From Dehalobacter sp. DCA (GTDB lineage Bacteria; Bacillota; Desulfitobacteriia; Desulfitobacteriales; Syntrophobotulaceae), in the NCBI RefSeq assembly GCF_000305775.1, contig NC_018866.1:1240001-1304000 (forward strand): 64,000 bases of DNA, given 5' to 3'. Shown piece after piece: positions 44,061-63,863 of the stretch. The translations under genes and the position numbers were made by a program. Position 1 is the stretch's first letter. The number at the start of each line of letters is the position of its first letter. The notes under the pieces are model-generated. The model was not told where the DNA came from. It saw only the letters and a list, made by a program, of their open reading frames with translations, and searched no databases.

Positions 44061-45494
44061 TTACATGGTCATAGAAAAATTTACTGCCTGCTCCTGCGAC
44101 GGGAGCATCGACGGAAGCTCTTGCTCAGCAAACATAATAGTTTTGACGCTGTCCAGCGCAAGGCGCTGATAGGAGGACAGGAGCTTTTCCTTATCCGCCA
44201 GTGTCCGGATGCCCGGGGCCTGAAGCTGGCGGCATATTTCCGTTACATCCTGGCGCAGCTGTTCCGCCTTAGCGCGAAGCCAGCCTCTATCCTCATGGGG
44301 ACGGTAGCTTTCCTGCAGCTTTTGGATGAGCTGCTCCATTGTCGCAGGCTGTTCCATCTGGTTAAGCTGCCTTTGCATGGCAGCCAGCGAGCCGGCAGCC
44401 ATACACTGCAGGCATTCCCGAACAGCGTCCGTGTTTAGATCTACTGTTTTGCCGGAAGCAAGAAACGGCTCCACCGCCTCGGCGCACTCTGCGAGGAAGG
44501 AGTCAATGTCCTTATGCGTTGAGAGGGCTTTGCACAAATCATGCAGTTCACCGACAACCTTCGGCAGAAGCTCCAGCTTCGGATGCACCTGTGCCGGGAT
44601 GGGACTGACACCGTTATTGGCTTTCAGATCCTCATTCCAGTCCTTGTGCTGCGATTGCATTACGAAAACATCCGTATATCCCTTCTCCAACAGGATATCC
44701 TTCAGGCGTCCGCTGGCTTCGATGCCTGCTTCGTCATGGTCCAGGCACAGCACGACGCTTTTCAGATGAGGATTCAGCTCCAGCTGACGGAGCATGGCGT
44801 GTTCCGACACGCCGTCCAGCGTGACATAGCTGTGCCGCCGCCAGTCCTTCCGGTTCAGTGTGATGAAGGACAGCATATCCACCGGCGCCTCGAACACATG
44901 GAGGACACCGCTCTCTCCGATCCAGTGGAAGCTGTATTTCGGATCGCTGCCCTCCACGTTTCCTTTATAAGGTTCGCCCTGGGTGTAAGTGCCGCGCTTG
45001 TGAGCGTGGCGGGGGACGCTGTTTTCACCCAGCCCGATAAACACCGCGTTGTGATATTCCTTGTCCTCATAGATCAGCTTTTCATGGGCGAAGCGGGACA
45101 GCACCTCACGGTCAATGAACCGCCGCTTTATCAGATAGGCAAATACCCGGCGCATATCGTGATTGGCTTCCGGAAGAGTGAATTTCTTACGGGGAGCAGG
45201 CGCGCTCTTGACCGTCTGGTTCCACTCCACGCCGCAGTCCTCTCCAAGCAGATAATTTACCGCTTCGGGAAAGCTCATATCATAGAACTGCTGGACGAAG
45301 TCAATGGCGTGACCGCCTTCTTTGCGGGAGTGACGGAACCATTGATTACCGCGCACGGTCACGCTGTCATGACGCTTCCAGCGCCACTCCCGGCCGGAAC
45401 GCACAAGCTGCTCTCCCTGACGCTGAAGGAAATCTACCAGGTCGACTGAGTTGGCCTGCTGCTTCTGTTCGTCTGTAAAATGAATGTATGCCAA
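44061..45494 (-). CDS. DUF3991/TOPRIM primase-like protein
   Basis: The 477-residue protein begins with a CHC2-like fold lacking an obvious zinc motif (DSVTVRGNQWFRHSRKEGGH). It then has DUF3991 and a TOPRIM domain (VFEAPVDMLSFITL ... VVLCLDHDEAGIEASGRLKD). Such proteins prime DNA synthesis on the transferred strand. The C-terminal 150 residues are helical, and the very end (QAVNFSMTM) resembles the tail shared by other proteins of this element. Confidence 0.85.
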   Translation of the reverse strand: MAYIHFTDEQKQQANSVDLVDFLQRQGEQLVRSGREWRWKRHDSVTVRGNQWFRHSRKEGGHAIDFVQQFYDMSFPEAVNYLLGEDCGVEWNQTVKSAPAPRKKFTLPEANHDMRRVFAYLIKRRFIDREVLSRFAHEKLIYEDKEYHNAVFIGLGENSVPRHAHKRGTYTQGEPYKGNVEGSDPKYSFHWIGESGVLHVFEAPVDMLSFITLNRKDWRRHSYVTLDGVSEHAMLRQLELNPHLKSVVLCLDHDEAGIEASGRLKDILLEKGYTDVFVMQSQHKDWNEDLKANNGVSPIPAQVHPKLELLPKVVGELHDLCKALSTHKDIDSFLAECAEAVEPFLASGKTVDLNTDAVRECLQCMAAGSLAAMQRQLNQMEQPATMEQLIQKLQESYRPHEDRGWLRAKAEQLRQDVTEICRQLQAPGIRTLADKEKLLSSYQRLALDSVKTIMFAEQELPSMLPSQEQAVNFSMTM

Positions 45495-45538
45495 AGTGCA
45501 TTCCTCCTTTGTCAGCGCTTGCGCTTACCGCATCGGCG

Positions 45539-45569
45539 AAAAAAAGCCACCCGCCGATAAGCGGATGGC
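45539..45569 (-). terminator. Intrinsic terminator after the relaxase gene
   Basis: On the minus strand GCCATCCGC pairs with GCGGGTGGC around TTATCG, followed by TTTTTTT. It separates the mob genes from the primase-virD4 operon. Confidence 0.75.
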
Positions 45570-45656
45570 CTGCGTGACGCCAGGCTGATTTTTTCGGGAA
45601 ACGGTTCTTTTTTCTGAATATCTTGATTGAGGCTTTTGCATGAAAACCCTCCCTTG

Positions 45657-48335
45657 TTAATAGGTTGTATGCCTTAGCTCATGATCGTCCGGAGCGTGAC
45701 CCTGGGCAATCTTCTTCTCGCGTATCCTGCGCCGGAGCTTGCTGTCGGTCTGCATGCCGGGACCGCCGGAGAACCTTTTCTGCTCATCGCGGAATATCCT
45801 GCTTAAGTGATGCAGGAGCCTTGTCGCCGCCAGGAAGAGAGGAGGATCACGGAAGACGTCCGGACGGTCGAGGAAAAACTGCGCATAAATGTTGCCCTGT
45901 GCTGCAGACAGCGTGAGCCAGCGCATGGCGGCTTCATGGTCGCGGGGAACATCCCTGCCCATGAGATACAGCTTGCCGAGCGCGTACTGGCTATACTGAT
46001 TGCCCAGCTCTGCAGACATGGTCAGCCATCTGACGGCGGCTTCCACATCCTTGGGCATATCCTCTCCCAGCAGATAGAGCTTGCCGAGCTGATACTGAGC
46101 GAATGAATTGTTCTGTTCCGCTGCTTTCGTGAACAGCTCCACCGCTTTAGCGATGTCTTTCTCCACATAGAGACCGTCACTGTAGAGCTTGCCCAGGGCA
46201 AACTGAGCCAGGCCGTTGCCGTTATCCGCAGCCTTGGTTAACCACAGGACAGCCTTTTCCGGATTTCTGTGTCCGCCGTCCTCGTCGAGATAAACCTTGC
46301 CCAGCATATACTGCGCATGGACGTTGCCGAGGCGGGCAGCCTTTTCAAAGTACGCGATTGCCGCTTCCACATCCTTATCCGTTCCGGTTCCGGTAAAGAG
46401 CATCTGCCCAAGGCGGTATTGGAGCTTATCGTCATGGCTTTGTTCCTCCAAACGCTTAAAGCCGTAAAAGGCTTCCTCAAAATTCAGCTCCGCTTCCTTG
46501 GCGTCCTTCTCTGTGCCGATACCGTCCCGGTACATTTTCGCCAGCTCGTAATTGGCGTAGGGAACATGCTGGGCGGCGGATTTACCGTAGAGCCGGAACG
46601 CTTTTTCGTAGTCCTGTTCCACGCCTTGCCCCCGGTAGTACAGACCGGCGAGAGAATATTGGGCATACTTGTGATTGCGGGAAGCCGCCATTTCAAACCA
46701 TCCGGCCACTTCCTCATAGTCCCGCTCCGTGCCAAGTCCCGCCGCGTGCATTTTGCCGATGCGGTATTCCACATAGCGGCTATTCCTGTTCGCTTCGATG
46801 TCCATGAACGCGGAGAGCGCTTTTTCGTACCAGCCAAATGCGATATCGACGTCCATATCGACGCCAAGCCCGTCGGCGTACATCCTGCCGAGGTCGTGCA
46901 TGGCGAGAGCGTTCCCGGCTTCAGCTTCCTCCAGAAACAAACAGAGAGCCTTCTCAAAGTCAGGCTCCAGTTCATCGCTGCCATAGAGAAAAACACGGGC
47001 TTCCTTGTAGCGGGCACTCCATTTGATATGCGGTCTGCCGGATTCACCTTCATTGAAATCCGGACGGGAGGAACCCTCGGGAGCAGAGCACGGTATATTT
47101 CCATTGTCCTCTGGCGCTTCATCTATGCCCGTTTGGTATTCATCCTCCGGCGACAGGGCTTCGGATTCTACCGCCGCTTCATGTATATCCTCCGCCGACT
47201 CATCGCCCTCCAAGGTGAAATGCTGACCGCCGATATTCACGGCTTCCGCAATCACCATATTTTTTATGTGTTTGAATTCCTTTTGCCGTGAGAGCGGAAC
47301 GGGATCGGGGAGCTTATTCATATATGTCCGCAAAACTTCATTGCGAAGCTCTTGCCATTTCGCGTAGGCTTCCGCCACCCGAGTGTCCTTCGCCAGTTCA
47401 TCCACAATCTGATCCACGACGGCTTTTAGAGGCGCCTTGAGATAGCCGCACTGCTTTTTGCCGGAGGTATGCTTCAGACGCTCCGCCAGATGAAAGAGCA
47501 GGGACTCAATAGTTTCGTTATCATAAACACTACCGCTCATTCTGCTGATGATTTCTCTTAGGACTTCGCGGCTGTGCTCGGCAAGCGTATTTCTCTGTTC
47601 GGTCTGTCCTGAATATATTTGAATGAGATCCTGCTGAAGGATTTCCCTTGCCAGGCTACTCCGCATCTTTTCGATGGCTGGTTTGGTGACATACCCCTCG
47701 CGGGGATTCACCGAATAAACCAGCATGTGACAGTGGGGATGATGCCCTTCGTTGTGAAAGGCGGCGTACCAGCGCAGGTTTTCCGGAGCGATCTTCATCT
47801 GCTCGGCGAAGATATTCCGCTGCTTGCGGATGAGCGCCATCCACGCGGCGGCATTGTCATACCCCAGCCGTGCAGCGTCCTCCCGCCGCAGAGATATGAT
47901 GGGCGTCCATACATTGCCAGTGTGTTCACCGACCTCCCTCATCACCCTTGACAGCACCAGCAGATCATCCGTATCGGAGAACAGCCCATGTGTTCCCAGC
48001 TTTTCAGCACGGGGACGGGTAGCGATGTAGCTGACATAGGTTTCCTGATGTGACAACTGATCCATATTCTGATCCAACGCCGCGGTGATAAACTCCGAGG
48101 CGTTTTCTACGGTTGGCTGCTTGATATAGTCCTCATATTCAAACAAATCTGCTGTATCCGGAAACTGTGAGAGGATGTCTGCGATGAGCTGCTCCTGTTT
48201 TTCTGTGGCAGGGCGTTCGCGGAGGGCGGGAGAGATTATCTCCGCGCCATCCCGCGTCGCGACGTATTCCACAAGGTTTTCAAGATGTACCGCGGCGTTT
48301 TTAATGTATCTGCATTTAAAGACAATTCTCGGCAT
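45657..48335 (-). CDS. MobP-type relaxase with C-terminal Sel1-like repeats
   Basis: The 892-residue protein nicks oriT and pilots the strand. The N-terminal relaxase domain holds the three-His metal motif HNEGHHPHCHMLVYS (residues 194-208). Tyr100, Tyr103 and Tyr190 are visible candidates for catalysis. From about residue 455 to 860 nine or more 36-residue Sel1 repeats follow (pattern AQYxLGKLYLxG). These are TPR-like and bind partner proteins. The acidic linker lies at about 380-450. It starts 2 bp after the accessory gene, so they are co-translated. Confidence 0.9.
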   Translation of the reverse strand: MPRIVFKCRYIKNAAVHLENLVEYVATRDGAEIISPALRERPATEKQEQLIADILSQFPDTADLFEYEDYIKQPTVENASEFITAALDQNMDQLSHQETYVSYIATRPRAEKLGTHGLFSDTDDLLVLSRVMREVGEHTGNVWTPIISLRREDAARLGYDNAAAWMALIRKQRNIFAEQMKIAPENLRWYAAFHNEGHHPHCHMLVYSVNPREGYVTKPAIEKMRSSLAREILQQDLIQIYSGQTEQRNTLAEHSREVLREIISRMSGSVYDNETIESLLFHLAERLKHTSGKKQCGYLKAPLKAVVDQIVDELAKDTRVAEAYAKWQELRNEVLRTYMNKLPDPVPLSRQKEFKHIKNMVIAEAVNIGGQHFTLEGDESAEDIHEAAVESEALSPEDEYQTGIDEAPEDNGNIPCSAPEGSSRPDFNEGESGRPHIKWSARYKEARVFLYGSDELEPDFEKALCLFLEEAEAGNALAMHDLGRMYADGLGVDMDVDIAFGWYEKALSAFMDIEANRNSRYVEYRIGKMHAAGLGTERDYEEVAGWFEMAASRNHKYAQYSLAGLYYRGQGVEQDYEKAFRLYGKSAAQHVPYANYELAKMYRDGIGTEKDAKEAELNFEEAFYGFKRLEEQSHDDKLQYRLGQMLFTGTGTDKDVEAAIAYFEKAARLGNVHAQYMLGKVYLDEDGGHRNPEKAVLWLTKAADNGNGLAQFALGKLYSDGLYVEKDIAKAVELFTKAAEQNNSFAQYQLGKLYLLGEDMPKDVEAAVRWLTMSAELGNQYSQYALGKLYLMGRDVPRDHEAAMRWLTLSAAQGNIYAQFFLDRPDVFRDPPLFLAATRLLHHLSRIFRDEQKRFSGGPGMQTDSKLRRRIREKKIAQGHAPDDHELRHTTY

Positions 48336-48337
48336 GG

Positions 48338-48751: not shown

Positions 48752-48759
48752 GCTGCTGC

Positions 48760-49329: not shown

Positions 49330-50592
49330 ATGATATGCACCTTAATGAACAAACGCACTCCTTTGGTGGAACTGGATATAGACGATGATACTGCCTCTAT
49401 CCTGAAGGTCTTTGAGGTAATTCATCCGGAGCACCTTCCGGTTGGCATCACCATTACCAAGGGGCTTCCGGATAGAATAAGTCTGAACGATTGGTGGCTG
49501 GGACGTTCCATTCCTTCCAACCGTTCCGGTATCCGTGAGGCTCTTGACATCATGAATATATCTTACACGGAGCAGCTACTTACAAAATGTTATGGCCTGA
49601 GTCTTACCGATCAGTATTGGATCAGTTCAAAAGCTCATCCCCTTGATTGGGATCGCCTTAACTTTTTTCAGAACCAATTTTCAGATGATGTGGGCAATGC
49701 ACTCTTTGGAAAGGCTTCCCCTCATGAGGAGCTTGACTTGATGTCTCCCTGCAATACTTGCGATGGGTGGCTCCGAAAAAAGTGGAAAATCATTGACGGA
49801 AAACGTTGCCTGATCAAGTCCGGAAGCAATCCATTCCAACAGGAACCGCTCAATGAGTTGCTGGCAACTTCTTTGCATCAGCGCTTAAGCCATGCCGCTT
49901 ATGTACCATACAGCCTCATTTGGGAAAATGAAATCCCCTACAGCGTATGTGAAAATTTCATTACGCCTGAGACAGAACTGGTCAGTGCTTACAGCATTTT
50001 TAAGAGTGAAAAGAAGCACAATCATCACTCCTTGTACGAGCATTTTCTGCTTTGCTGTGAACACCTTGGCATCCCCGGCATGAAGGAATTTCTGAATTAT
50101 CTGCTGGCTTTTGACTTTCTCATGGCCAACACAGACCGCCATTTTGGAAACTTTGGTGCTGTCCGGAATGTGGATACCCTTACATGGCTGGGAGCAGCGC
50201 CTGTCTTTGACAGCGGCACAAGCCTCTGGCATGATCAGGTCTCAAGGGTAATTCATCCGAATGGTGATGTGCCAAGCCATCCGTTTAAACCGATGCATGC
50301 CGAGCAGATCGTTTTGGCCGGCAGCCTTGACTGGATTGATTTTTCCGCGCTCCGGGATATCGACGAGGAGTTTCGAATCCTTCTTTCCGCTTCGCCGTAT
50401 ATTGATGAGCCGCGTACAGATAAGTTGTGCAATGGTTTGAAAGGGCGTGTGCGGCAACTCGAACAACTTGCTTTGGAGCAGAAACATCAAGTAACCGTCA
50501 GCCATCCGAAGGAGACAACAGAGGTTCATCCGGAATCACAGGACTTTGAAAAAAACTATAATGCATATTATGTGACTGCCCTAAAAGGATAG
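49330..50592 (+). CDS. HipA-like kinase family protein of the element
   Basis: The 420-residue protein has a HipA/phosphatidylinositol-kinase-like core. The catalytic loop is FLMANTDRHFGNFGAVRN and the metal-binding APVFDSGTSLWHD follows. The N terminus (LNDWWLGRSIPSNRSGIREA) is shared by relatives often labelled excisionase in clostridial elements, a label not supported by these motifs. It is the only plus-strand gene beside oriT and has no HipB-like partner next to it. It may be a toxin-like or regulatory Ser/Thr kinase. Confidence 0.7.
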   Translation: MICTLMNKRTPLVELDIDDDTASILKVFEVIHPEHLPVGITITKGLPDRISLNDWWLGRSIPSNRSGIREALDIMNISYTEQLLTKCYGLSLTDQYWISSKAHPLDWDRLNFFQNQFSDDVGNALFGKASPHEELDLMSPCNTCDGWLRKKWKIIDGKRCLIKSGSNPFQQEPLNELLATSLHQRLSHAAYVPYSLIWENEIPYSVCENFITPETELVSAYSIFKSEKKHNHHSLYEHFLLCCEHLGIPGMKEFLNYLLAFDFLMANTDRHFGNFGAVRNVDTLTWLGAAPVFDSGTSLWHDQVSRVIHPNGDVPSHPFKPMHAEQIVLAGSLDWIDFSALRDIDEEFRILLSASPYIDEPRTDKLCNGLKGRVRQLEQLALEQKHQVTVSHPKETTEVHPESQDFEKNYNAYYVTALKG

Positions 50593-50613: not shown

Positions 50614-50862
50614 TTATTGCTCGTCCTCTGCAGCATTTTTTTGTGCTGCAGCCAAGCTGGATGGTCTTGCTGGCTTCGGTTGATCGTCTGCCTCGCGGCT
50701 TTCGATGTACTCACGGACGGGAGCCGGAACATATTTTTCATAGAACTTCTGCATCACTTCGTCCAGTTCCGTTTCGATGGACGCTTCCTTTTTGGCCATG
50801 TATTGCTTTAAGGCTCCGAGCTTTTCGCTATCGAAGCTGATTTGCAAGGTCGCTTTCTTCAA
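50614..50862 (-). CDS. DUF6103-like small protein
   Basis: The 82-residue protein (MKKATLQISFDSEKLGALKQ ... EKYVPAPVREYIES) is paralogous to the N-terminal 60 residues of the protein at 52056-52481. It is the last gene of a tight five-gene minus-strand operon. It lacks the Met-rich tail carried by its paralogue. Role unknown. Confidence 0.6.
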   Translation of the reverse strand: MKKATLQISFDSEKLGALKQYMAKKEASIETELDEVMQKFYEKYVPAPVREYIESREADDQPKPARPSSLAAAQKNAAEDEQ

Positions 50863-50874: not shown

Positions 50875-51420
50875 CTATAAACTTATTTTTTGCACCTGTG
50901 GTGCTTCATCATTTGCTTCCTCCTGGGGAGAAAGCTCTAGCTGCGCATCATACATTTTTTCAATTTGCTTTGCAAAATGGTTTATATTCACATAGCTCTG
51001 ACTGTTGTTCTTTTTGCGGAGCGATCCGGAGTAGGCATCAACAATAGCCGTGATCGGCAATGTTAATCGAGCAGCTTCTCCATGATTGTCATAGAGAAAG
51101 CCAAGACTGCCTGTGTCGAAATTTGCTTCGATATGGGCATCTTGGCTTTCTCCGTCCTCAATCTTTTTAACGGCTTCTGCAAATTCTCTGTCCTCCAGAG
51201 CATGAAACAGATTATAGCTTTTGCCTTTGAGTGCTACAAAGTTATAGTCTTTATCCAACGCTTGAAGCACAGATGTCCTGCTTCCTTTCGGAAGGTTTCT
51301 CTTTACTTGCTCCGAGGTATGGAGAAGTTTTGCTGCCGAGAGCAAGCTACCGGCATTTTGGGCAATGTAATTGCGGCTTTGCCCATTCTCCGTAATGGTA
51401 TATATTCCATGCTGCAACAT
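50875..51420 (-). CDS. Hypothetical protein with the element's C-terminal tail
   Basis: I do not recognise this 181-residue protein. It is soluble and mixed alpha/beta in appearance, with ANFDTGSLGFLYDNHGEAAR at about 95-115. Its end is EEANDEAPQVQKISL, which fits the acidic-then-alternating-hydrophobic tail seen in six other proteins of the element. It lies 12-13 bp from both neighbours, so it is co-transcribed with them. Confidence 0.6.
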   Translation of the reverse strand: MLQHGIYTITENGQSRNYIAQNAGSLLSAAKLLHTSEQVKRNLPKGSRTSVLQALDKDYNFVALKGKSYNLFHALEDREFAEAVKKIEDGESQDAHIEANFDTGSLGFLYDNHGEAARLTLPITAIVDAYSGSLRKKNNSQSYVNINHFAKQIEKMYDAQLELSPQEEANDEAPQVQKISL

Positions 51421-51432: not shown

Positions 51433-52047
51433 CTATAAACGCATATTCATGCCTTGATCTTCTTCCTCGCATTCATCAGATTCCTCGGTAAAATTCTCCG
51501 GCCATACATCAAAAAGTGATAGTTGCTCATTGTCCCTCGGTTTTAAGGATTTGACACGCTCTGCACATTCGAGGAAGGATTCAATATAGCCCTCCGGATT
51601 TTCATGCCGCCGCATGGATATTAAATCATCCGCAGCGATTGCTTGCTCCAGCCCTTTCACATAATTGATCACATTTCGAATGCTAGTCGTTTTGATATCC
51701 TTTGGATCAAGCCGTTCTACATGAGATAATAAGAATTGATAGTTCTCATCTTTTTTATAGAGCTGTATCACTTTTTTTGCATTCGACCAGATTTCCTCGC
51801 TCCTTGCCATGTAATCCTGGGAGACTTCAGGCGGTGCCTCTCGATAGAAGATAGCCGGGTAGTTTTGCGGCTCATAGGATTCCTCAATCTTTTGTTTGTA
51901 GTGGCTGATGTGATTGCGCACAAGGTTTAAATTGCAGCCGTCCGACCAGAAGGGATCATGACCTCCAAATTTATAGAGCGCCTCCCATCGATCGAACGCC
52001 TGCTGTAGTTCTGCTTCAAGATTCTGCGGATGCTTTTCCTTCTTCAT
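51433..52047 (-). CDS. Hypothetical protein ending EEEDQGMNMRL
   Basis: This 204-residue helical protein is of unknown family. A QLSLFDVWPENF segment precedes a strongly acidic stretch (EESDECEEED) and the tail QGMNMRL. The middle of the operon places it among cargo or accessory genes between the M23/VirB4 block and oriT. Confidence 0.6.
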   Translation of the reverse strand: MKKEKHPQNLEAELQQAFDRWEALYKFGGHDPFWSDGCNLNLVRNHISHYKQKIEESYEPQNYPAIFYREAPPEVSQDYMARSEEIWSNAKKVIQLYKKDENYQFLLSHVERLDPKDIKTTSIRNVINYVKGLEQAIAADDLISMRRHENPEGYIESFLECAERVKSLKPRDNEQLSLFDVWPENFTEESDECEEEDQGMNMRL

Positions 52048-52055: not shown

Positions 52056-52481
52056 CTACAAGCTCATACTCATGCCCTGATTTTCTTCCTCGACTTCTTC
52101 CGACCCGGCAGTCTGTTCCTGTTGCGATTCGGCCTGTGCGGCAGCAGCCAGCTCCTTTTCACGCTGGCGCTTGCTTTGTCTTAGCTGCTTTTCCGAGTAT
52201 TTTTCCTCGTCCACTTTGACTTCCTGCTCGGGAGCATTCCCCTCTGCTTTGATCTCCTGCTTGACAACATCCTCTTCTACTTCGACCTCCTGTTTGGGAG
52301 CCTCGCTCCCGGACTGGCTTTCCACATACTCTCGTACTTGTACGGGAACCATCTTTTCATAGAGCCTGTCGAGGTGGACCTGCAGTTCATTCTCTACGTT
52401 CAGTTCTTTCTTGGCCATATAAAACCGCAGTGCATTGAGCTTGTCGGCATCAAAGGATACCTGTAAATTTGTTTTTTCCAT
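52056..52481 (-). CDS. DUF6103-like protein with extended acidic region and GMSMSL tail
   Basis: Residues 1-60 (MEKTNLQVSFDADKLNALRF ... YEKMVPVQVREYVES) match the small protein at 50614. It is followed by about 70 Glu/Lys/Gln-rich residues that look disordered or coiled-coil, and the end EEENQGMSMSL. The paralogue without the extension lies three genes downstream, so duplication was followed by gain or loss of the tail. Confidence 0.65.
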   Translation of the reverse strand: MEKTNLQVSFDADKLNALRFYMAKKELNVENELQVHLDRLYEKMVPVQVREYVESQSGSEAPKQEVEVEEDVVKQEIKAEGNAPEQEVKVDEEKYSEKQLRQSKRQREKELAAAAQAESQQEQTAGSEEVEEENQGMSMSL

Positions 52482-52495: not shown

Positions 52496-53545
52496 TTAAA
52501 ATGATATAGAGGTAAATCCAGTAGCTTCATCGATTTGCTCTTTGGTGAAGCTCTCTGGAGTAAGAAATTCTTGCGTATATTCTTCAATTTGTTCCTCAGT
52601 TAATGAGATAAACTCACCTTCATCGTTATAACCCGCAATAAAAAAGTTGCCGACGAGGATGTCATTGCCCAGGGAGCGGTTGCCCTCCATTTCTAACAGC
52701 TTGCCTTCTTCATTGCAGACAAGGGAAACATAGGACGCTAAATTTACCGCCTGAATGTTCCCTCCAACCGCTTTCTGCATGGAGGCAAGATCATTGCCGA
52801 TCTCCGCAACATAAGGAGTCTCATGCGGCTCAACCATTAAGACTTTTATTTTTTGATGTTCTGGTTGTGGTTCACTACTAGTTTCAGCCAATGTTGCTTC
52901 CGGCTTCTCCGTTACCCATTTTTCATAGTCCTGCACGGAGCAATATCCGGCAAGCATGTATGAAAAGTCCGATAGCCTTTGAGGTTTTACATCGCTGACC
53001 TCTATTTGCAGGCCATATTCACCAGTAAATATCCGGTGCACATCAGCCTCCAAAATGTCAGCCCAGTCCTTCTTTCCGGCATCGGTCAGGGTATCATTTT
53101 TCAACTCGCATAGGGTAGCCAGATCTATATCTTCATCGCTGTGAATGAGATGGATGTCCTCCCAGGGCATCGACATTAAATCTTTCAGCTTAAGGCCGCG
53201 AGCTACTGTTTTTTTCTCTGCTGATTGTTCCTGCTCCATAACTGCCGCTAATAACAAAGAGGCATTCGGCAGGAATGCAGCATAACGGGCATAGTCATAT
53301 CCCTCTCCTTGGACAAGGATACCGTCATCTCTTTCTTCTCCCACCACTAAAATGCAGTGGCATGTGCCATTCTCGCCAAAATGTTGCAGGTCTTTGTTAT
53401 CCCTTATAAAGTCATAGTCAGCCAGCATATTTTTGGAAAATTTATCGTATTCGTGAGACGTAAGTACAACAACTTTTTCAATAACGCAGTTCTTAGGCTC
53501 AAAGTCATCCAATTTTCTATTAAAGACCGCTTTGGTTGTTAACAT
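52496..53545 (-). CDS. DUF3846-domain protein (with DUF6329-like N terminus)
   Basis: I chose ATG 53545 (MLTTKAVFNRKLDDFEPKNC) behind GAAAGGGTG, giving 349 residues. The longer frame upstream lacks a ribosome site. The N-terminal 150 residues resemble DUF6329. DUF3846 lies near residues 235-325 (IKVLMVEPHETPYVAEI ... LVGNFFIAGYNDEGEF). It ends IDEATGFTSISF, a variant of the shared tail. It is the first gene of the five-gene operon. Such genes are common in Tn1549-like elements, and their functions are unknown. Confidence 0.65.
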   Translation of the reverse strand: MLTTKAVFNRKLDDFEPKNCVIEKVVVLTSHEYDKFSKNMLADYDFIRDNKDLQHFGENGTCHCILVVGEERDDGILVQGEGYDYARYAAFLPNASLLLAAVMEQEQSAEKKTVARGLKLKDLMSMPWEDIHLIHSDEDIDLATLCELKNDTLTDAGKKDWADILEADVHRIFTGEYGLQIEVSDVKPQRLSDFSYMLAGYCSVQDYEKWVTEKPEATLAETSSEPQPEHQKIKVLMVEPHETPYVAEIGNDLASMQKAVGGNIQAVNLASYVSLVCNEEGKLLEMEGNRSLGNDILVGNFFIAGYNDEGEFISLTEEQIEEYTQEFLTPESFTKEQIDEATGFTSISF

Positions 53546-53727
53546 AGTTTCACCCTTTCTTTTATGGTAGATAGTTTCGTGGGTTTTTTTCTTATTGATC
53601 CGCACCCCAAAGTGATGGTGCGACCCGGGGTTATGGTCTGTGGAGTCAACCTTGACGATTATATCGCCTTGGCTCGCAATTTGGAGCAGCAGCCTGATTC
53701 TTTGATTCAGAAAGCTTTCAAAGCAAA

Positions 53728-53752
53728 ATAAAAAAGCCATCCCTTTCGAGAT
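53728..53752 (-). terminator. Intrinsic terminator after the fic gene
   Basis: On the minus strand GGTCATC and GGATGGC can pair (with one G-U) around TCGAAAG, followed by TTTTTT. It lies just after the fic stop at 53781. Confidence 0.5.
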
Positions 53753-55924: not shown

Positions 55925-57745
55925 TTACCGTCCTCCCGCCGTGCCGAACAATTTTTCCTTATATTCCGGTGCAGAAACCATGAGGTTGTACCTCTCGTTG
56001 CCGCATTTATAGAGGCAGACACCCCGCTGCGGATAACGGATGAGGTTGTATTCACTCTGTTCAAGCTGCAGGGTATCCATATAAAACTTTGCATCAATGT
56101 TTCCGGCGTTGAACAAGAAGGCGTGAGTCGGGATGCTGAACAGGGGCTTCGTGTATTCTCTGATTCCATCCAGGTTGAAGTCTTCCAGGTTCTGCGAGGC
56201 AAGGATGACGGCGCTGTCTTTCTTACGAACTCGCTTCATAAAATTGCGGATGTACTCAATGGCTGTAAGGTTGGAGAGGAAGAGGTACAGCTCATCAATG
56301 CTGGCTACCGTGCTGCCTGCCGTCAGCAGCTGGTTGGACATGAAAGAGAGTACGTTGAAAAGCAGAGCGTTTTTGATGTTCTTGCTGGCCTGCAGCAATC
56401 CTTTTACGCCAAAGGTGATGAAGTGGCTGTCGGTGATATTCGTGTGTCCGTCAAAGAATTTGCTCTCCGCACCCACGCAAAGCGAGTGGAGTCCAAGGCA
56501 GATTTCCTGCAGGGTTTCTGCAGTGTAGAGCTGTTTGTGGCTGCTGTCATAGCTTTGATACTCCCCTTCTATCAGCTTATACAAGTCGGACAGGATAGGA
56601 TAATCCTTGGGTGTCAGCCGGTCAAAGTTGGTATGGTCGGTAATGTTCCACTTGTCATAGAGCTTGGTAAGCATGATTTCAATGGTGTCAATCTGCCTGT
56701 CATTAAAGTCCTTGTAGCTACGAAAGAAATCCTTCAGGAAGGAGATGTGCTGCGACAGCTTGGAGGCACAGCGGAAGGCCTGGGGTGCTTCCTTGTCCTC
56801 CGGCGATCCGTTTTCATCCCATGTCTTAGGCTCTAGTACATTGATAATGTACTCGCCGGACATCAAGTCGATAAAGCAGCCGCCCAGGTTGAGGGTTAAA
56901 TCCTCATATTCATGTTCAGGGTCAAGGACAATGACCTTCATACCGCTTTGCCTCATATTGCAAAGGATGAGCTTCATAAGGTAACTTTTGCCTTGACCGG
57001 AGTTCCCCAGGATGAGAATGTTGGCATTGGTTTTGTCGTCGGTCCTCTTGTTAAAATCTACAATGATATTGCTTCCAAACTTATCCCTTCCAAGGTAGAA
57101 TCCATTGGCATCGGTTTTCCCTGAGTAATTGAAAGGATACAGATTGGCCACGCTGGAAGCGGGGAGTACCCTCTCGAACTGGTCGCCAAATATGTTGTAG
57201 CCGCTTGGCATCACCGCAATAAACCCTTGCTGCTGACGGAGCATGAGCCGATCCACATTGAGCTTGGAACGGATCAACTCGGTCAATACTTCGGTTTGAA
57301 GCTCCTTTAAGTGGTCAAGATCGGAGGCTGACAACTCAATATATACCGCCGAGTGCAGGAGCGGCTCCCGGTTCCGATGCATGGCGGCAACGATATTTGC
57401 AACGTCCTGCAGGTTGCTTTCGGCAGTGACGGTCTGCTGCAGGTCATTGGTGTTGCTCTGCTTCAGCCTGTTCTTGTTGGCCGCATTACTGATAATTTTC
57501 TTTTCCTCAATCGGGGTTACATGGCGGGTATAAATCTTTAAGGTGATGCCATCCTTTTCTCCAAGGTGGCGCAGGATGGCCTGCTCATCGGTGGCGGTAG
57601 GGTATTCTCGTAACGCCCAGACGCAGCGGTAGGTGTTGCCGCAGATGAAGTGATCGGTGTTAAACTTGATCACCGAGGGGGCGATCATGTCCAAAAACTC
57701 TTGGATACGAACATCGTCTTGCGGGGGTGATTGAGTTTTGAGCAT
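55925..57745 (-). CDS. virB4: VirB4-like conjugation ATPase
   Basis: The 606-residue protein powers the secretion channel. It begins MLKTQSPPQDDVRIQEFLDM. Walker A is GNSGQGKS (247-254), and VIVLDPEHEYEDL and the arginine-rich FMKRVRKKDSAVILASQNLE follow. It is shorter than full VirB4 because the N-terminal part is a separate gene in this family (60840-61430). A second, truncated copy of its first 48 codons lies at 58958-59131, with a DUF4365 gene between the two. Confidence 0.93.
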   Translation of the reverse strand: MLKTQSPPQDDVRIQEFLDMIAPSVIKFNTDHFICGNTYRCVWALREYPTATDEQAILRHLGEKDGITLKIYTRHVTPIEEKKIISNAANKNRLKQSNTNDLQQTVTAESNLQDVANIVAAMHRNREPLLHSAVYIELSASDLDHLKELQTEVLTELIRSKLNVDRLMLRQQQGFIAVMPSGYNIFGDQFERVLPASSVANLYPFNYSGKTDANGFYLGRDKFGSNIIVDFNKRTDDKTNANILILGNSGQGKSYLMKLILCNMRQSGMKVIVLDPEHEYEDLTLNLGGCFIDLMSGEYIINVLEPKTWDENGSPEDKEAPQAFRCASKLSQHISFLKDFFRSYKDFNDRQIDTIEIMLTKLYDKWNITDHTNFDRLTPKDYPILSDLYKLIEGEYQSYDSSHKQLYTAETLQEICLGLHSLCVGAESKFFDGHTNITDSHFITFGVKGLLQASKNIKNALLFNVLSFMSNQLLTAGSTVASIDELYLFLSNLTAIEYIRNFMKRVRKKDSAVILASQNLEDFNLDGIREYTKPLFSIPTHAFLFNAGNIDAKFYMDTLQLEQSEYNLIRYPQRGVCLYKCGNERYNLMVSAPEYKEKLFGTAGGR

Positions 57746-57897: not shown

Positions 57898-58874
57898 ATG
57901 GGAATTTTTCATAATGATCAGATCGATCGTATAGGAATATCACATTGCGAAAACGCAATTACCAAAATAGGTTTGATTTTTAGAGAACAACCAATTCGAG
58001 ACTATGGAATAGATGCGCAAATTGAAACTATAAATCCAAAACTGCATACGCATCAGGAAAACTTGTAGCCGCACAAATCAAAACAGGCCATAGCTATTTT
58101 TCCGAAATTCAAAAGGGACACGTAATATTTAGGGGAGAAAACAAACATTATGACTATTGGCTCAAACACTCATTACCAGTTATACTAATCTTATATAACC
58201 CTGATACTGATGAGTGTATTTGGGAGCATGTTAATTCTCAAACTACTAGAAGAACACAATCGGGATGGTTAATCAGCGTTCCCAGGAATCAGAAATTATG
58301 TGAATGCAAGGAATTAATCGAAAATATTTCTGAAAACCTGTCAGATTATGAGAAAAAACTTCTTACTTTAATATTAGCTATGCCTTGGATGGACGCCATT
58401 AATAATGGTGACGATGTCATTCTTGAGGCAGATGAGTGGGTTAATAAATCATCAGGGCGTGGCTCGTTCATATTGAAGATTATAGACAGTAATCAAAAAG
58501 AAAAGATAGTAATTGAATGGCCGTATGCATATTTTGGTATGCAGAGTTATGAAGATGTATTTAGACGATTGTTTCCTTGGGCAGATATTCATATTGATGA
58601 TGACTTTTATTATGATTATGAAGTAGATGAATATAAGAAGAGCAATTGTCCTTATGATAATGAAACTGGTGAGTATCTGTATTTTGATCACGAAGAATTT
58701 GAAGAGTGGAGGAATGAATTGCCGGATATTCGTGCATATAGCAATTCTTCGGGTGAAGTTGATCATTACCGCTTAAAACTGACATTAAATAGGATTGGTG
58801 AAATCTTCTTAGAATTGGATAATTTCCTTGAAACTGAATCGTTTTATAATCTCAATGAGAATGATATTAAATAG
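57898..58874 (+). pseudogene. DUF4365 (PD-(D/E)xK-like) protein with one frameshift
   Basis: ATG 57898 behind GGAAGGAG begins MGIFHNDQIDRIGISHCENA and has the DUF4365 core REQPIRDYGIDAQIE. An A-run near 58031-58034 seems to lack one base. The next frame continues ASGKLVAAQIKTGHSYFSEI, HYDYWLKHSLPVILILYNPD and runs to 58874. The D...E...QIK arrangement resembles the PD-(D/E)xK nuclease site, and the family is frequent in defence loci. It is oriented against all its neighbours and has much lower GC. Whether the shift is real decides if it is functional. Confidence 0.7.
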
Positions 58875-58957
58875 ATTGATATAGTTTTAATTATGAGCCC
58901 TGAACCTACCAAACCGCCCATTATGCATACTATCCATCTACTTACTATTTTCGTCGT

Positions 58958-59131
58958 CTATAACAAACAGATCGGATATTCTCGTAACGCCCAGAAGCAT
59001 CTATAGGTGTTGCTGCAAATGAAGTAGTCGGTGTTAAACTTGATCACGGATGGTGCGATCATATCAAGGAATTCCTGGATGCGGACATCATCCTGCACAG
59101 GCGTTGGTGTACCAAGTTTTCTTTTTACCAT
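58958..59131 (-). pseudogene. virB4: Truncated second copy of the virB4 5' end
   Basis: ATG 59131 begins MVKRKLGTPTPVQDDVRIQE, then FLDMIAPSVIKFNTDYFICS and NTYRCFWALREYP. This matches residues 10-49 of VirB4 at 55925-57745 with few changes. It stops soon after (ICLL). Together with the DUF4365 gene it marks an insertion that displaced and duplicated the virB4 start. Confidence 0.85.
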
Positions 59132-59169
59132 AGACTTTCACTTCTTTCTGCTTGAATTTGAATATAAAA

Positions 59170-59208
59170 AAGCTGCTTGCTCTATTGATACAATAAAGCA
59201 AGCAGCTT
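59170..59208 (-). terminator. Intrinsic terminator
   Basis: AAGCTGCTTGCT and AGCAAGCAGCTT form a perfect 12-bp stem. On the minus strand TTTTTTAT follows. It ends transcription from the fic-antitoxin pair upstream. Confidence 0.8.
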
Positions 59209-59232
59209 CTTTTATCGGATGATATATGAAAA

Positions 59233-59260
59233 GGGAGCATTAGCCTAAACTAATACTCCC
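59233..59260 (-). terminator. Second hairpin after fic
   Basis: GGGAGTATTAG and CTAATGCTCCC (minus strand, one G-U) enclose TTTAGG, followed by TTTT. It is in tandem with the terminator at 59170-59208. Confidence 0.6.
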
Positions 59261-59312
59261 TTGCCTCTTTTTGGCAGTCATCCTCATTCTAAGTTTTGAT
59301 GATGATTTGAAT

Positions 59313-59948: not shown

Positions 59949-60123
59949 GGCTATAGCCCCTGACAGCCGTGTGCTTTTTTATGAGTTCAGCTATCGTTTC
60001 TTCAACCAGTTTATCATTACCTACGCAATGTCTGATTCTATCTTTATCAGTCTGCGTAAGCGGCATGCCTTCCATTGACATTGAGCCGTTAACCTCATCA
60101 ATGAGCTTTTCCAAATCTCTCAT
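59932..60123 (-). CDS. VbhA-like Fic antitoxin
   Basis: The 63-residue helical protein carries SMSMEG (Ser14...Glu18-Gly19), the (S/T)xxxE(G/N) inhibitory motif of class I Fic antitoxins. It overlaps the start of the fic gene by 17 bp. Confidence 0.85.
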   Translation of the reverse strand: MRDLEKLIDEVNGSMSMEGMPLTQTDKDRIRHCVGNDKLVEETIAELIKKHTAVRGYSHEQQL

Positions 60124-60276
60124 ATGAACACCACCTACCTATATATTATACTATATTTTCACTAAAAATTAAAACTGTCTATCAGCTTCTTTGTTTGGGA
60201 TGTGGACGCCATCTGGCGACCTGACAGCCGTAGCTTTGTCGGTACGATTTTAGGCTTGGAGTTCATAATGAATGTG

Positions 60277-60732
60277 TCAGGTTAGTTGCTGCCCTGCTGC
60301 ATTTTCCTGCTGCTCTTTTTGTTCATCGTCCTTATGTGTAATTTCCTCGGCAAGCTGAAGCCTTTGAAGTACGAATGCCATTACACGGTCAGCATCAGCA
60401 ATGGCTGTTTTCATATCGTTGTTTGAAATTTGCATCTCGAAAGGATATATCGGCTCGCCATATCGCGCAAGTCTCTCCCAAGGCCCCATCAACCCCTCAA
60501 AAGCCTTGTCGAATTTCAGGCACATGCTGCATAACCTTTCTAAGTCTTGAGTCTGAGACGGTTCTACATTTTGATATAGGAGATATCCCTTTAGCGCTTC
60601 TTCGGCGGCCTGTTCGCTGTGATAACAGACAATTTCCAAGGGAACCGGACGCATACCCAAGAGATGCTTTGCGCAACTGATATCTTTGTTTGCAAAATCA
60701 AGCCATCCTTTGACTCTATTGATTCTCTCCAT
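60277..60732 (-). CDS. HEPN-domain protein without a partner gene
   Basis: ATG 60732 (MERINRVKGWLDFANKDISC) has AGGAG 8 bases upstream. The protein of about 151 residues has the HEPN pattern AKHLLGMRPVPLEIVCYHSE, QAAEEALKGYLLY and ARYGEPIYP. HEPN proteins are often RNase toxins paired with a nucleotidyltransferase. No such gene is next to this one, although a paralogue at 63438 has one. The C terminus is Gln/Glu-rich and lacks the GMxM tail. Confidence 0.75.
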   Translation of the reverse strand: MERINRVKGWLDFANKDISCAKHLLGMRPVPLEIVCYHSEQAAEEALKGYLLYQNVEPSQTQDLERLCSMCLKFDKAFEGLMGPWERLARYGEPIYPFEMQISNNDMKTAIADADRVMAFVLQRLQLAEEITHKDDEQKEQQENAAGQQLT

Positions 60733-60839
60733 ATAACATGCTCCTTTCTCAGTCAGTTGTTTTTTCAATGGGTCCTATAGTTTGCTTCATCTCCCTTCTT
60801 TTGGCTGATTATATTACAAAACCATTGCGCACTGGACGG

Positions 60840-61430
60840 TTAGTCACCTAAAATCACCCACCTTTGCCCGTCAAAGTCCTCGAACCTTTCGGTGGTCACG
60901 TTCTGCTCGAAGTACACTGCCAGGATTCGTTTGATATCCTCGCTTCCGGATCGCTTCACAGAGAAGCCCTGCTCACGCAAGGTTTTTTCGATGCGGTTTA
61001 AGTACGGGAATATTTCTTTTTGCTTTTCATCCTTAAGCCGTATGATAATAAGAAACTCACGGGCGGTTGCCATCTGCACCTGTATCCTATCGAGGAAACC
61101 CAGGTCAGCCTCCAGCAGCTTGCGGACGGTGGGGCTGCCCTCCTGTTCGATGCGTTCCCGGAGAAACTGCTTGTTGTCCTCGAAATTTTCACGGGAATTC
61201 AGGCAGCACATTTCGATCTCCGCCATGCCTTTCAGCACGGTCATGAGGGCATAGATTCTTGCGGAGATGCTGGCTTCCGACTGGACCGAGATATTGCTCG
61301 GCTTGATGATAAAATATACAAGTTCTCCGTGCCCATAGGTCTGCAGACTGTAATCGGTAATGTCTTTTGTGCCAATGAGCTGCCGTGTAGAAAGCTTTTG
61401 CTTGGCTATCTTTTTTTCTTTTCTGCTCAT
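60840..61430 (-). CDS. Conjugation protein, VirB4 N-terminal-like
   Basis: The protein of about 196 residues starts at ATG 61430 (MSRKEKKIAKQKLSTRQLIG), overlapping the PrgI stop by 4 bp. It has DYSLQTYGHGELVYFIIKPS and resembles the N-terminal domain of VirB4 ATPases, which is encoded separately in this family of elements. No Walker motif is present. It is presumed to dock with VirB4 at the membrane. Confidence 0.65.
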   Translation of the reverse strand: MSRKEKKIAKQKLSTRQLIGTKDITDYSLQTYGHGELVYFIIKPSNISVQSEASISARIYALMTVLKGMAEIEMCCLNSRENFEDNKQFLRERIEQEGSPTVRKLLEADLGFLDRIQVQMATAREFLIIIRLKDEKQKEIFPYLNRIEKTLREQGFSVKRSGSEDIKRILAVYFEQNVTTERFEDFDGQRWVILGD

Positions 61431-61693
61431 TTTTCCGTGTACCTCCATTCATACATTTGCTGCTTGGTGATAAAAAAGCCACAGGCATACTTGATAAAAT
61501 CGAGGATAGAGGTGTCCTCAAACCGGATAGTCAGGAAGCCGTAAAGAGCAGTCGCCACTATCGGCAACAGGAGGCCGAGCTGTGCCAGCGCAAAAACAGA
61601 GATAAGACACCCGATACCGATGATGCCGATATCTTGAAGCTGCCACAGCCACAGCACCGCTTTGGATTTTAAATTATCGGGGTAGATATACAT
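61427..61693 (-). CDS. PrgI-family membrane protein
   Basis: The 88-residue protein has two hydrophobic helices (about residues 22-40 and 42-58) and the typical start MYIYPDNLKSKAVLWLWQLQ. PrgI/VirB3-like proteins form part of the inner-membrane channel. It is followed directly by the VirB4 N-terminal-like gene. Confidence 0.85.
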   Translation of the reverse strand: MYIYPDNLKSKAVLWLWQLQDIGIIGIGCLISVFALAQLGLLLPIVATALYGFLTIRFEDTSILDFIKYACGFFITKQQMYEWRYTEK

Positions 61694-61706
61694 GGTTCAG
61701 CCCTCC

Positions 61707-62270
61707 TTACAGCTTCATGCCCATGCCGGAAGATGGCTCTTCATCCAGCTCTAGCTCCATTTTCTTAGGGAAGTAGGAGACATTTACCGTTCTAATGTTA
61801 TTCATAAGCACATTTGCTTTCTCAGCAGCTTCCTCACAAGTGTCAAAGGTCATGGGTTTCCCGTCTGATTTCAGCCAAGCCTCCGCAGCTCCACAGATGG
61901 AAGCAGCGTTGCGTTTTGCCCAAATACCCCATTGCTTCATATTCATTACTCCTTGGTTTTCAATAAATTTGATGTACCTTATTTTGATGCTGAGCCTTTG
62001 GGCATCCGCAATCTCTCGTCCCATTCCCTCAGATATCCGGTCACCGAAGACCCACAGCTCATCGCAGGAGAGAAGGAAGCGCAAGCCCATTTCAATTCCT
62101 TTTTTTCTTTATTCCGGATTACTGTCATGTAAAAATAAAGGAAACAAGAGGTGGGGAGCAATTGGAGCCACACCGGCGCTTGCAGCAAAGCGGCAGTACT
62201 CTATCGCCATCCTGGTATTGTGCTCGATATTCCCAGCGTAGGGCGAGGCAATATATACGAGTTTCATCAT
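61707..62270 (-). pseudogene. DUF7768-like (deoxyribosyltransferase-fold) gene fused to a tail-bearing domain, one in-frame TAA
   Basis: ATG 62270 begins MMKLVYIASPYAGNIEHNTR, then APIAPHLLFPLFLH. TAA at 62109-62111 interrupts it, and the frame continues RKKGIEMGLRFLLSCDELWV, FGDRISEGMGREIADAQ. From about MNMKQWGIWAKRN a second, unrelated domain follows, ending LDEEPSSGMGMKL. The first part resembles nucleoside 2-deoxyribosyltransferase-like DUF4406/DUF7768 proteins. The start overlaps the TrbL-like stop. The ORF after the stop could still be made from the internal ATG 62090. Confidence 0.7.
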
Positions 62271-63127
62271 TTCGCCACTGCCTGCACTACCGTTCTGGTA
62301 ATGTTCACCGCAGACTGGGCCGCATAGATGGTGCTCATGAGGTTGGCCTTGGTGGAAGTGTCCAACCCAAACTGTCCGGCGATCCTTGGTATCTCAGATG
62401 CTGCCAGCATTAGGCCGAGACCGAGGAGCATATTCTGATTCCACACCAAGAGTCCGGCGATGAGGATGGTTGCCTGCAAAAATGCGGTGAGGCACAAGCC
62501 TACCACCTGTTTGCTCCAGGATACAAAGCCGTCGATGTATCCACGGGGTACCGAGAACATATACAGGCTCCCTACTGCAATCTGGATCAGCAGGATGCCG
62601 CCACGCTTCAGGTTGGCAAAAAACACTTTAATCACAGCGTAGCCCATGAGGATAACGCAAAAAATGCCGAGGATTGGATTCAGTCCAAGCCCCCCTAAGT
62701 TGGTAAGGGCTCCAATAGCCATGGTGCTGATGCCTCCGCTAGCTCCCATCAGGTTTGAGATTCCCGAAGTAAAGCTGCCCTGCAGCGTAACAGATAACTT
62801 GTATAGCTCCACCGGCACAATGGTGAACAGGTTCACAGCCATAAAACCCTTGATGGCGTTCAAGGCAGTATCTTTTATGCTTGCCCGACCCGACTGTGCT
62901 TCGATGGCACATTCAAACAGTGCTACCACCAGTCCGGTTCCATACAAAGCCCAGGCCAGATAACTAAATAATGTTACGATGGCCTGCACCCAAGTCATGC
63001 CGAACAGATCGGCTCCCATATTGCCCATCATGGAAAAGAAATCACCGAGGAAGCCGATCAGTTGCTGATATATCCAGTCCATAATCTGTCCAAGGACAAG
63101 ATTTGCAGCAAAATCCCATATAAACAT
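62267..63127 (-). CDS. VirB6/TrbL-like integral membrane conjugation protein
   Basis: The 286-residue protein has about six hydrophobic segments and begins MFIWDFAANLVLGQIMDWIY. Gly-rich stretches follow (MGASGGISTMAIGALTNLGG), as in TrbL/VirB6 channel proteins of Tn1549-like elements. It is the first recognised gene of the block TrbL, DUF7768, PrgI, VirB4 N-terminal part. Confidence 0.82.
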   Translation of the reverse strand: MFIWDFAANLVLGQIMDWIYQQLIGFLGDFFSMMGNMGADLFGMTWVQAIVTLFSYLAWALYGTGLVVALFECAIEAQSGRASIKDTALNAIKGFMAVNLFTIVPVELYKLSVTLQGSFTSGISNLMGASGGISTMAIGALTNLGGLGLNPILGIFCVILMGYAVIKVFFANLKRGGILLIQIAVGSLYMFSVPRGYIDGFVSWSKQVVGLCLTAFLQATILIAGLLVWNQNMLLGLGLMLAASEIPRIAGQFGLDTSTKANLMSTIYAAQSAVNITRTVVQAVAK

Positions 63128-63219
63128 TGAGCGCCTCCTTTCATTAAAAATAAACGCCGCATCGTTTAACGATGTGCTTTTCGGAAGTTCCTTTTATTAT
63201 TCAAAAAAAACCACGCTTA

Positions 63220-63403
63220 ATTACTTTAGATTAGCGTGTTCTTCTATTTGATATACCTGGATTTTCTTGCTCTCTTCGTTGCAACACACAAAGAGCAGTG
63301 GCATTTTTATTAACGAAATCCCTTCAAATACCGGATAATCCTCTTCAAACTGCTGGATCGTCTCTGAAATATCATCCTCAATAAAGAAGCGCCAAATGAC
63401 TTC
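63220..63403 (-). pseudogene. Short reading frame without a start (hypothetical, partial)
   Basis: The minus strand encodes VIWRFFIEDDISETIQQFEE, DYPVFEGISLIKMPLLFVCC and ends EEHANLK. An upstream stop and no start codon make it a likely 5'-truncated gene. A hairpin (GCGTCAAATGA/TCATTTGGCGC, 63390-63415) covers the break. Family not recognised. Confidence 0.4.
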
Positions 63404-63437
63404 TCATTTGACGCAAAGGTTTGAGTTTGAATTGTAG

Positions 63438-63863
63438 CTATTCCATTGTCATCCCCTGTTCCTGAGCTTCGTGCTGCTCCTCAGTCATAGCGTGAGTAAT
63501 AAAATCCATGATGTGTTCCGCTGATTTTATTGCCTTATGCATATCCGCTTCTGTTACTTCGATTTCTTCAGGATAACGCACACGAACGCCGAAGGGAGTC
63601 AGCCTGCTACAATCCTCGGCAATTCCATCGAATCCCTTATCCTTTAAAGCACATAGGCGGCATAGCTCGCCTAAATCATGAATGCGCGGTGCTTCTTCAT
63701 CGTGCATCAGCAAAAATGCTTTCAACATCTTTTCAGCAGACTGCTCGCAATGATAACAGATAATCTCCAACCGAAACGGATATAAGGATAACAGATGCTT
63801 TGCCGCAGTGAGATCATCGGCGGCAAATTCAAGCCATCGCCTGCACAGGCTGCTGATCTCCAT
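63438..63863 (-). CDS. HEPN-domain toxin-like protein (HepT-like)
   Basis: The 141-residue protein (MEISSLCRRWLEFAADDLTA) has HEPN features AKHLLSLYPFRLEIICYHCE, QSAEKMLKAFLLM and RVRYP. It is paralogous to the protein at 60277. It overlaps the 3' end of a nucleotidyltransferase gene by 35 bp, the arrangement of HEPN-MNT toxin-antitoxin pairs, in which MNT adds AMP to the HEPN protein. Its last residues EQGMTME resemble the tail found on other proteins of the element. Confidence 0.82.
   Translation of the reverse strand: MEISSLCRRWLEFAADDLTAAKHLLSLYPFRLEIICYHCEQSAEKMLKAFLLMHDEEAPRIHDLGELCRLCALKDKGFDGIAEDCSRLTPFGVRVRYPEEIEVTEADMHKAIKSAEHIMDFITHAMTEEQHEAQEQGMTME

Follow-up and report, generated by a model that had tools for sequence, protein, structure and literature searches.

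Why do seven otherwise unrelated proteins of one conjugative element end in much the same short peptide? The proteins belong to an integrative conjugative element of Dehalobacter sp. DCA, which occupies the minus strand of the window analysed here (64,000 nucleotides of contig NC_018866.1, G000:C1:1240001-1304000, G000 being the label of the source genome) from about 42 kb and runs on upstream of the window for at least another 33 kb (stretches L004 and L005). The tail proves to be a tag common to unrelated proteins and switched in class between element families. We consider it likely that such tails are family-specific C-terminal signals, by which the type IV coupling machinery of each element would recruit the cargo bound for the recipient.

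All seven C termini reported in the original prediction are present in the translated frames, each on the minus strand. The common consensus claimed for them holds for five, in which an acidic or glutamine-rich run is followed by G-M-x-M, with [ML]xM near the end: a DUF3991/Toprim primase-like protein identified with Pfam (44061-45494; tail EQAVNFSMTM, codons 44064-44093), a 204-residue protein with no family assigned (51433-52047; EEEDQGMNMRL, 51436-51468), a DUF6103 paralogue (PF19598; 52056-52481; EEENQGMSMSL, 52059-52091), a protein with a DUF7768 end matching profile positions 59-98 of 98 (61707-62090; EEPSSGMGMKL, 61710-61742) and a HEPN protein (63438-63863; QEQGMTME, 63441-63464). The remaining two, a 181-residue protein with no family assigned (50875-51420; QVQKISL, 50878-50898) and a DUF3846/DUF6329 protein (52496-53740; DEATGFTSISF, 52499-52531), carry variants of the tail. 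The closest relatives of both retain the variant ends; distant relatives of the 50875 protein end in FKMGM and GMDLQL, and distant DUF6329 relatives of the 52496 protein in DMQMKQL and PGMELKL. Relatives of the 51433 protein (GMNMSL, GISLGM, TMSMNF, GMIMSM) and of the 61707 protein (GINMKL, GMSMKL) likewise bear such tails, and the tail of the 63438 protein was not found among the relatives of that HEPN protein. In a predicted structure of the primase, tail residues 465-477 form a low-confidence end (pLDDT <50). The absence of other homology among the seven was also borne out: with the last 12 residues removed, no two were similar at an E value of 0.1, and similarity among nine compared proteins was confined to the DUF6103 pair and the HEPN pair of paralogues. 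The DUF7768 domain itself is apparently broken into two minus-strand frames, 62109-62270 and 61707-62090, the latter holding only its last part; in relatives of 189-194 residues the domain lies in a single frame.

The paralogues bear on whether the tail is a module, as had been proposed. One DUF6103 copy (50614-50862, minus strand) lacks the tail and serves as an internal control, and a second HEPN protein (60277-60768, minus strand) ends in ENAAGQQLT and is untagged by regular expression (regex). SpoVG shows the same in eight genomes, where tails were present on 12/12 element copies and 0/8 chromosomal copies (p 8e-6; the 12 are related to one another). The eight best chromosomal copies stop at most 10 residues after the match, whereas the twelve tailed ones, ten of them within the fetched element stretches and two at 5 and 25 kb upstream of stretches, have 25-36 extra residues, rich in Q, E and P and ending in GMQM, RMQM, GMRM or PVMGG. 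Four additional SpoVG places are untailed. Together with the swapping of tails between element families described below, these comparisons of sequence strongly support a modular tail.

The same motif, here called type I, recurs upstream of the window on ArdA, SpoVG, YodL, DUF3848 and other proteins. The ends include KGMRLC (DUF3848), RMQMGSI and GMQMG (two SpoVG proteins), GQSMNL (YodL), SMRMNL (no family), ARMMQIN (DUF6075) and, on four ArdA-domain proteins, SGMQIN, QGQQMI, QKMGGM and QRMGGM. A strict regex matches 9/63 of the element's minus-strand genes and a broader one 14/63; nine of the 14 lie upstream of the window, and at least two of the 14 (YIWTILGM and KEVFGI) look accidental.

Enrichment was assessed on a discovery set of 17 related stretches (E02-E18), found by primase homology. 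The pattern put forward in the original prediction, [MF]x[MI]x[LMF]$, was enriched when proteins were counted (35/565 versus 0/389 host proteins, p 1e-8) and not clearly so by family (2/136 versus 0/324, p 0.09). A wider pattern, [ML]xMx{0,3}$, matched 93/565 proteins and 14/136 families, compared with 3/389 and 3/324 in the host; moved 20 residues inward, it matched 2/136 families. The regexes were fixed after the discovery set and before a fresh set was drawn. The latter came from a genome scan that yielded 80 named loci (among others in Desulfosporosinus, Pelotomaculum, Lacrimispora, Tissierella and Flavonifractor), of which 77 were kept after L225, L227 and L266 had been removed as repeats of the discovery set; plus-strand proteins only were counted, after dereplication, and other overlaps with the discovery genomes may remain. 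In this set the motif occurs in 86/641 proteins and 15/285 families, against 3/387 and 3/335 in the host, and internal-position controls gave 7/641 and 1/641. It is found in 82/524 soluble proteins and in 4/120 with a membrane span. Many of the element stretches are near copies, and the protein counts are therefore not independent.

Counted by family before dereplication, with families named by profile scan or by likeness to the window proteins, the motif is present in 37/37 amidoligases, 4/4 members of the 51433 family, 47/71 primases, 25/75 DUF6103 and 12/28 DUF6329/DUF3846 proteins, 3/72 relaxases and 0/49 peptidases. A family tagged in 7/7 members is, by profile scan, a DUF6329 protein. 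Two sets of matches are unconvincing: a two-span membrane family ending in YIWxILGM fits the broader regex in 12/14 members through its own hydrophobic end, and the matches of a ParM-like actin (5/7, then 7/15) are read as that family's own end, GYKLLMG. The amidoligase (PF12224; L063:11954-12988, plus strand; L211 685, plus strand) is present in 37 of the 77 fresh loci and ends in SPGLSMSM; it was not seen in the window element.

The apparatus of the window element is untagged, as are its relatives. This holds for the VirD4-like coupling protein (42227-44047, minus strand; relatives tagged 0/71), which we propose as the tag reader, and for two apparatus controls on the same strand, a VirB4-type ATPase (55925-57745; 0/17 relatives, then 0/39) and a multispanning membrane protein that is VirB6-like by position (62267-63127; 0/17). 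Machine components thus lack the tag and membrane proteins seldom carry it, as is expected of cargo signals in type IV secretion. The MobP3 relaxase (45657-48335, minus strand) ends in ELRHTTY, and some of its relatives in EQTMSL or PGMTMTM. These genes also correct the assignment of the element as Tn1549-like: profile models identify a CD1115-family VirD4 (NF045973) and a MobP3 relaxase (NF041499) with Sel1 repeats, and VirB4 comes nearest to the Mbov_0397/CD1110 models, at scores below their cut-offs. The element is a relative of Tn1549 and no copy of it. A short, truncated frame about 1.2 kb upstream of the VirB4 gene (58958-59131, minus strand) repeats the start of that gene, and a plus-strand gene (58380-58874) separates the two copies, which gives the appearance of an insertion with a duplicated end.

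Elements reached via short primases have ends that are unlike type I, yet alike among themselves. Type II tags consist of a basic run followed by E-x-E-R and are found in two elements at 58-95 kb of this Dehalobacter genome as well as in other genera. The type II regex, fixed together with the others above, matched 39/152 proteins and 11/62 families of the type II discovery set and, in seven further stretches, 34/105 proteins and 12/57 families, versus 7/389 and 7/335 in the host (p 7e-7 by family). The tagged proteins are the primase, ParB, ArdC-N, DUF3849, DUF3801/PcfB and a giant protein, with ParA included through its terminal Arg. In an annotated Monoglobus element, 12/27 proteins have an Arg end, among them ParA, ParB, SNF2, primase, DUF3846, relaxase, PcfB and an ArdC-like protein, compared with 0/9 apparatus or envelope proteins (p 0.001; both groups sorted by hand). 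The two type II elements of this genome (L079/L078, G000:C1:58-95 kb) stand back to back in opposite orientation, and the giant gene of one is broken by a transposase-like gene.

Type III tags are acidic runs with W or M followed by E-L (E-E-E-W/M-E-L). The corresponding regex matches 13/243 proteins versus 1/389 in the host; carriers are NT5C-like, YodL-ArdC, Fic, RadC and primase proteins, and a further stretch has the ends EDEEWEL, EEEIAV, AAIEMF and EELEME. Tn1549 may have a tag of an LEL/LEV kind, seen in five of the 19 proteins read (PcfB GLEL, YodL-ArdA GLEVE, a 314-residue protein NELEV, VLP HLEL, relaxase TQEL), and the ends of its VirD4, VirB6, VirB4 and C40 proteins are unlike this shared tail; we treat it as a lead, because it is a single example, seen after the idea had formed. 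On a pheromone-type plasmid of Enterococcus faecalis (L171), MobP2 ends in GYSR, DUF3991 in AMSR and SNF2 in YLSH, perhaps a further class represented by three proteins only. On a Bacillus pumilus plasmid (L301), a DUF3991 protein and a 177-residue protein have the common end RQV[QD]FRE.

A change of tail with the element is the main pattern in the 48 families that have homologues in two or more element types. The primase ends in NFSMTM in type I, in KNPLHER, NSMER or RSFAR in type II and in EEMEL or EEAEL in type III; DUF3848 ends in KGMRLC or KHGEPER, ParB in REQER (II) or GEEMIE (III), and Fic in TQTFME (I) or DDEWELEP (III). The tail of YodL also changes with the element, whereas several channel or pilus proteins retain their own ends in all types (SLGGMF, SMGGLF, TLGKLF; MFNYGG). 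For 25 of the 48 families, labelled as cargo or apparatus by hand with the tails visible, we compared similarity over the last eight residues. In 10 cargo families, unrelated proteins of the same element type scored 5.96 and homologues from different types 1.89; in 15 apparatus families the values were 0.12 and 7.98. Permutation exceeded the observed value in 0/500 cases for cargo and apparatus alike, so that nothing beyond the sign of the contrast should be read from these values. The same-type similarity of cargo drops to 2.26 and then 1.67 in the next 8-mers inward. The tag lies mostly within the last ~8 residues; membrane proteins seldom carry it, and the channel families examined lack it. 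This extreme C-terminal place, common to unrelated soluble proteins of one system, is what a type IV secretion signal would show, although the case weakens when the hand labels are dropped.

Tag class also follows the coupling protein. In a VirD4 tree, types I, II and III each fall within one clade, and the tag is congruent with these clades, as would be expected if it were specific to the cognate coupling protein. Three rows labelled 'other' (E20, E21 and L131) lie inside clades I and II and have tails like those of these clades (6/104 proteins in E20/E21). The tree left out type I stretches L180 and L182, for which another protein was obtained, and the type III VirD4 of E23; some of its branches are long and of unsure placement. 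The last 20 residues of type II VirD4 carry a net charge of -5 to -8 (ten rows), opposite to that of the basic tags, a complementarity that is only suggestive. Types I and II reside on one contig of G000, and all three types in assembly G153 (~20 contigs, 5% contamination). Host factors are therefore unlikely to set the class.

We propose that soluble proteins of early use in the recipient bear a terminal tag of 6-10 residues, often behind a flexible Q/E/P-rich linker, and that the matching coupling machinery would bind the tag, most likely through VirD4 or through a small adaptor at VirD4, and feed the protein through the mating channel. The cargo would comprise the primase, ArdA/ArdC antirestriction proteins, YodL and DUF38xx polyvalent-type domains, SpoVG, amidoligase, Fic and ParA/ParB, with the relaxase also tagged as cargo in some elements. 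The sharing and switching of tags are seen in the sequences; that VirD4 or an adaptor binds them, and that the tagged proteins are translocated and act in the recipient, we infer. Since tag chemistry differs from one element clade to the next, elements residing together would not have to mix their cargo. Of the roles offered in the original prediction, a type IV secretion signal fits best, in that many of the tagged proteins would be early-acting in a recipient and the class follows the coupling-protein clade; the mostly untagged type I relaxase fits it less well. A binding tag for one hub, another of those roles, is possible, since a VirD4 signal would itself be a hub-binding tag.

Several observations weigh against recruitment for transfer. 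The type I relaxase, a certain substrate, is tagged in only 4/18 cases, then 3/72, and must therefore be recruited by a different signal. In type I elements the ParM-like actin keeps its own conserved end, NADGYKLLMG; both Fic proteins of the window end outside the strict motif (FME and FIQSM); and the D12-type DNA methylase of the window element, the MT-A70 DNA methylase of Tn1549, and MobC in both the Monoglobus element and Tn1549 are untagged. SpoVG, DUF6103, amidoligase and HEPN proteins are tagged, and we know of no role for them in a recipient. Without labels, the same-type excess in 34 soluble families is small, though greatest at the C end (0.57, 0.22, 0.19, 0.01), and 14 membrane families show 0.29 at the C end. 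A motif-agnostic pairwise test per element, with one tail per family, gave z values of -2.6 to 3.5, mostly non-significant, and type I VirD4 ends show no clear charge complement. In more distant VirD4 systems the type II regex is not enriched (6/158 where VirD4 is 43-51% like that of type II and 4/362 at ~36%, against 7/389 in the host), and four other annotated plasmid stretches have no evident shared tail; shared tails are not universal among VirD4 systems.

Other statistics were uneven. Position-wise residue enrichment over all families failed, diluted by passenger genes. Conservation of tail relative to linker columns is clear only for type II (0.86 identity at the last residue, 0.35 and 0.25 at -5 and -6); in type I it is weak, position -3 reaching 0.59 and the rest of the last 12 positions 0.25-0.46. 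A codon test on the amidoligase gave no sharp signature, the non-synonymous share being 0.83 over the six terminal codons, 0.81 over the preceding six, and 0.93 and 0.88 deeper.

Among the alternatives, the best survivor is a docking peptide in the manner of SSB, which has a flexible linker and an acidic-hydrophobic tip. The tag would then bring accessory proteins together on a scaffold that the element encodes, for instance a relaxosome or a replication factor, in the donor or on the transferred DNA, with no secretion involved. The short acidic-hydrophobic tip is consistent with this, as are the tagged nucleic-acid proteins (primase, ParB, SpoVG, relaxase), and class-specific tags are compatible with any element-encoded hub. 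However, the relaxosome protein MobC and the DNA methylases are untagged, no DNA-processing hub is evident that ArdA, amidoligase, Fic and YodL would have in common, and the tagged set resembles kinds of protein known to be translocated. The resemblance to SSB drawn in the original prediction is a loose one of linker and acidic-hydrophobic tip: the tail sequences differ from the DDDIPF-like tip, no SSB family is among the tagged proteins scanned, and here, unlike in SSB, the tail sits on many unrelated proteins with a class per element; two plasmid SSBs end in DDDLPF. On balance we regard docking alone as unlikely, if the most serious competitor of a recruitment signal.

A degron at the C terminus, by which the donor or the recipient would be cleared of early-acting proteins, is a good deal less probable still. 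Short hydrophobic C-terminal peptides can serve as protease signals; the acidic-hydrophobic and Arg-ended tags, however, have no common chemistry, and tag classes differ between elements of one genome (G000, G153), so that the reader is more likely element-encoded. The host-protease tag among the roles first suggested is disfavoured because one recognition rule per host would be expected, whereas two classes coexist in the contig of this genome and three in the other assembly. We give hardly any credence to a DNA-level artefact, in which a ribosome site, a recombination sequence or composition at 3' gene ends mimics similar peptides: the genes do lie close together (in 40 of 65 type II genes with an Arg end, the next start is at most 15 bases off or overlaps), but type I tails vary in codons and in L, I or F for M, internal-position controls are flat, and a Shine-Dalgarno origin is ruled out by the use of six terminal Arg codons (CGA 15, AGA 13, CGT 12, CGG 9, AGG 9, CGC 7) and three stops after them (TGA 28, TAA 25, TAG 12), with ribosome-like sites, where seen, falling beyond the stop.

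A recruitment signal has parallels in known systems. Agrobacterium VirB/VirD4 substrates, VirE2 and VirF among them, have a basic C terminus, like type II. Dot/Icm effectors (the RalF end, the E-block) have a short acidic and hydrophobic C-terminal signal, like types I and III, and C-terminal charged or hydrophobic type IV signals are known from Gram-negative systems more widely (PMC7251119, PMC11288057). In both systems, as proposed here, otherwise unrelated soluble proteins are read by a coupling-protein complex (PMC7251119, PMC11288057). The present case differs in that the elements are Gram-positive, a near-uniform terminal motif is carried by many cargo types and its class differs between element families on homologous proteins. 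Proteins translocated by conjugation elsewhere include relaxases, the SogL primase, ParM, FicT, ParA, ParB, SSB and PsiB, and the F-plasmid pED208 conjutome, with ParA, ParB, SSB and PsiB, overlaps with the kinds tagged here (PMC8406263). Unlike here, what is available of PMC11288057 reports no common motif for the latter, describes signals that are C-terminal or internal and variable, and has the substrates also go through heterologous systems. Polyvalent proteins (Iyer et al. 2017) draw on the same pool of domains (ArdA, ArdC-N, YodL, Toprim primase, SNF2, M78, LPD) and were proposed to enter recipients; in the text available (PMC5512222) that account has ArdC-N as an N-terminal 'header', no C-terminal tag and no occurrence of 'secretion signal'. 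Searches of the openly accessible literature listed no paper that describes cargo of Gram-positive elements with a common C-terminal tag, nor is there one in the accessible part of the 2025 nomenclature review (PMC12857230). C-terminal type IV signals as such are already known; the many cargo types, the near-uniform motif, the class switching and the setting in Gram-positive conjugation appear to be new.

Two further features of the element may be recorded. Between the relaxase and accessory genes, on the opposite strand, lies a gene for a 420-residue untagged protein (49330-50592, plus strand) with a weak HipA_C match (E 5e-4, under the cut-off). Past the window (L004/L005, G000:C1:1302001-1342000), the element seems to have two Tad-pilus-like operons adjoining the transfer genes, judging by how they resemble the TadA/CpaB genes annotated in L168 and L299.

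The proteins that enter the recipient in Gram-positive conjugation have, to our knowledge, hardly been mapped. We speculate, at what we judge to be even chances, that the tails form a Gram-positive bar-code system: each clade would mark its cargo with a C-terminal address of its own, for its own coupling machinery to read, captured genes would be re-tagged, and the tag alone would list the delivered proteins, namely primase, antirestriction, partition, Fic, amidoligase, nucleotidase and RadC proteins and many of unknown function. If the tag is such a ticket, the proteins delivered together with the DNA could be listed from sequence for several large families of elements, Tn1549 perhaps included, and many unknown proteins would gain candidate roles. 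It would also account for how anti-defence proteins could act ahead of the expression of their own genes, and the short peptides would be usable as probes of the transfer machine.

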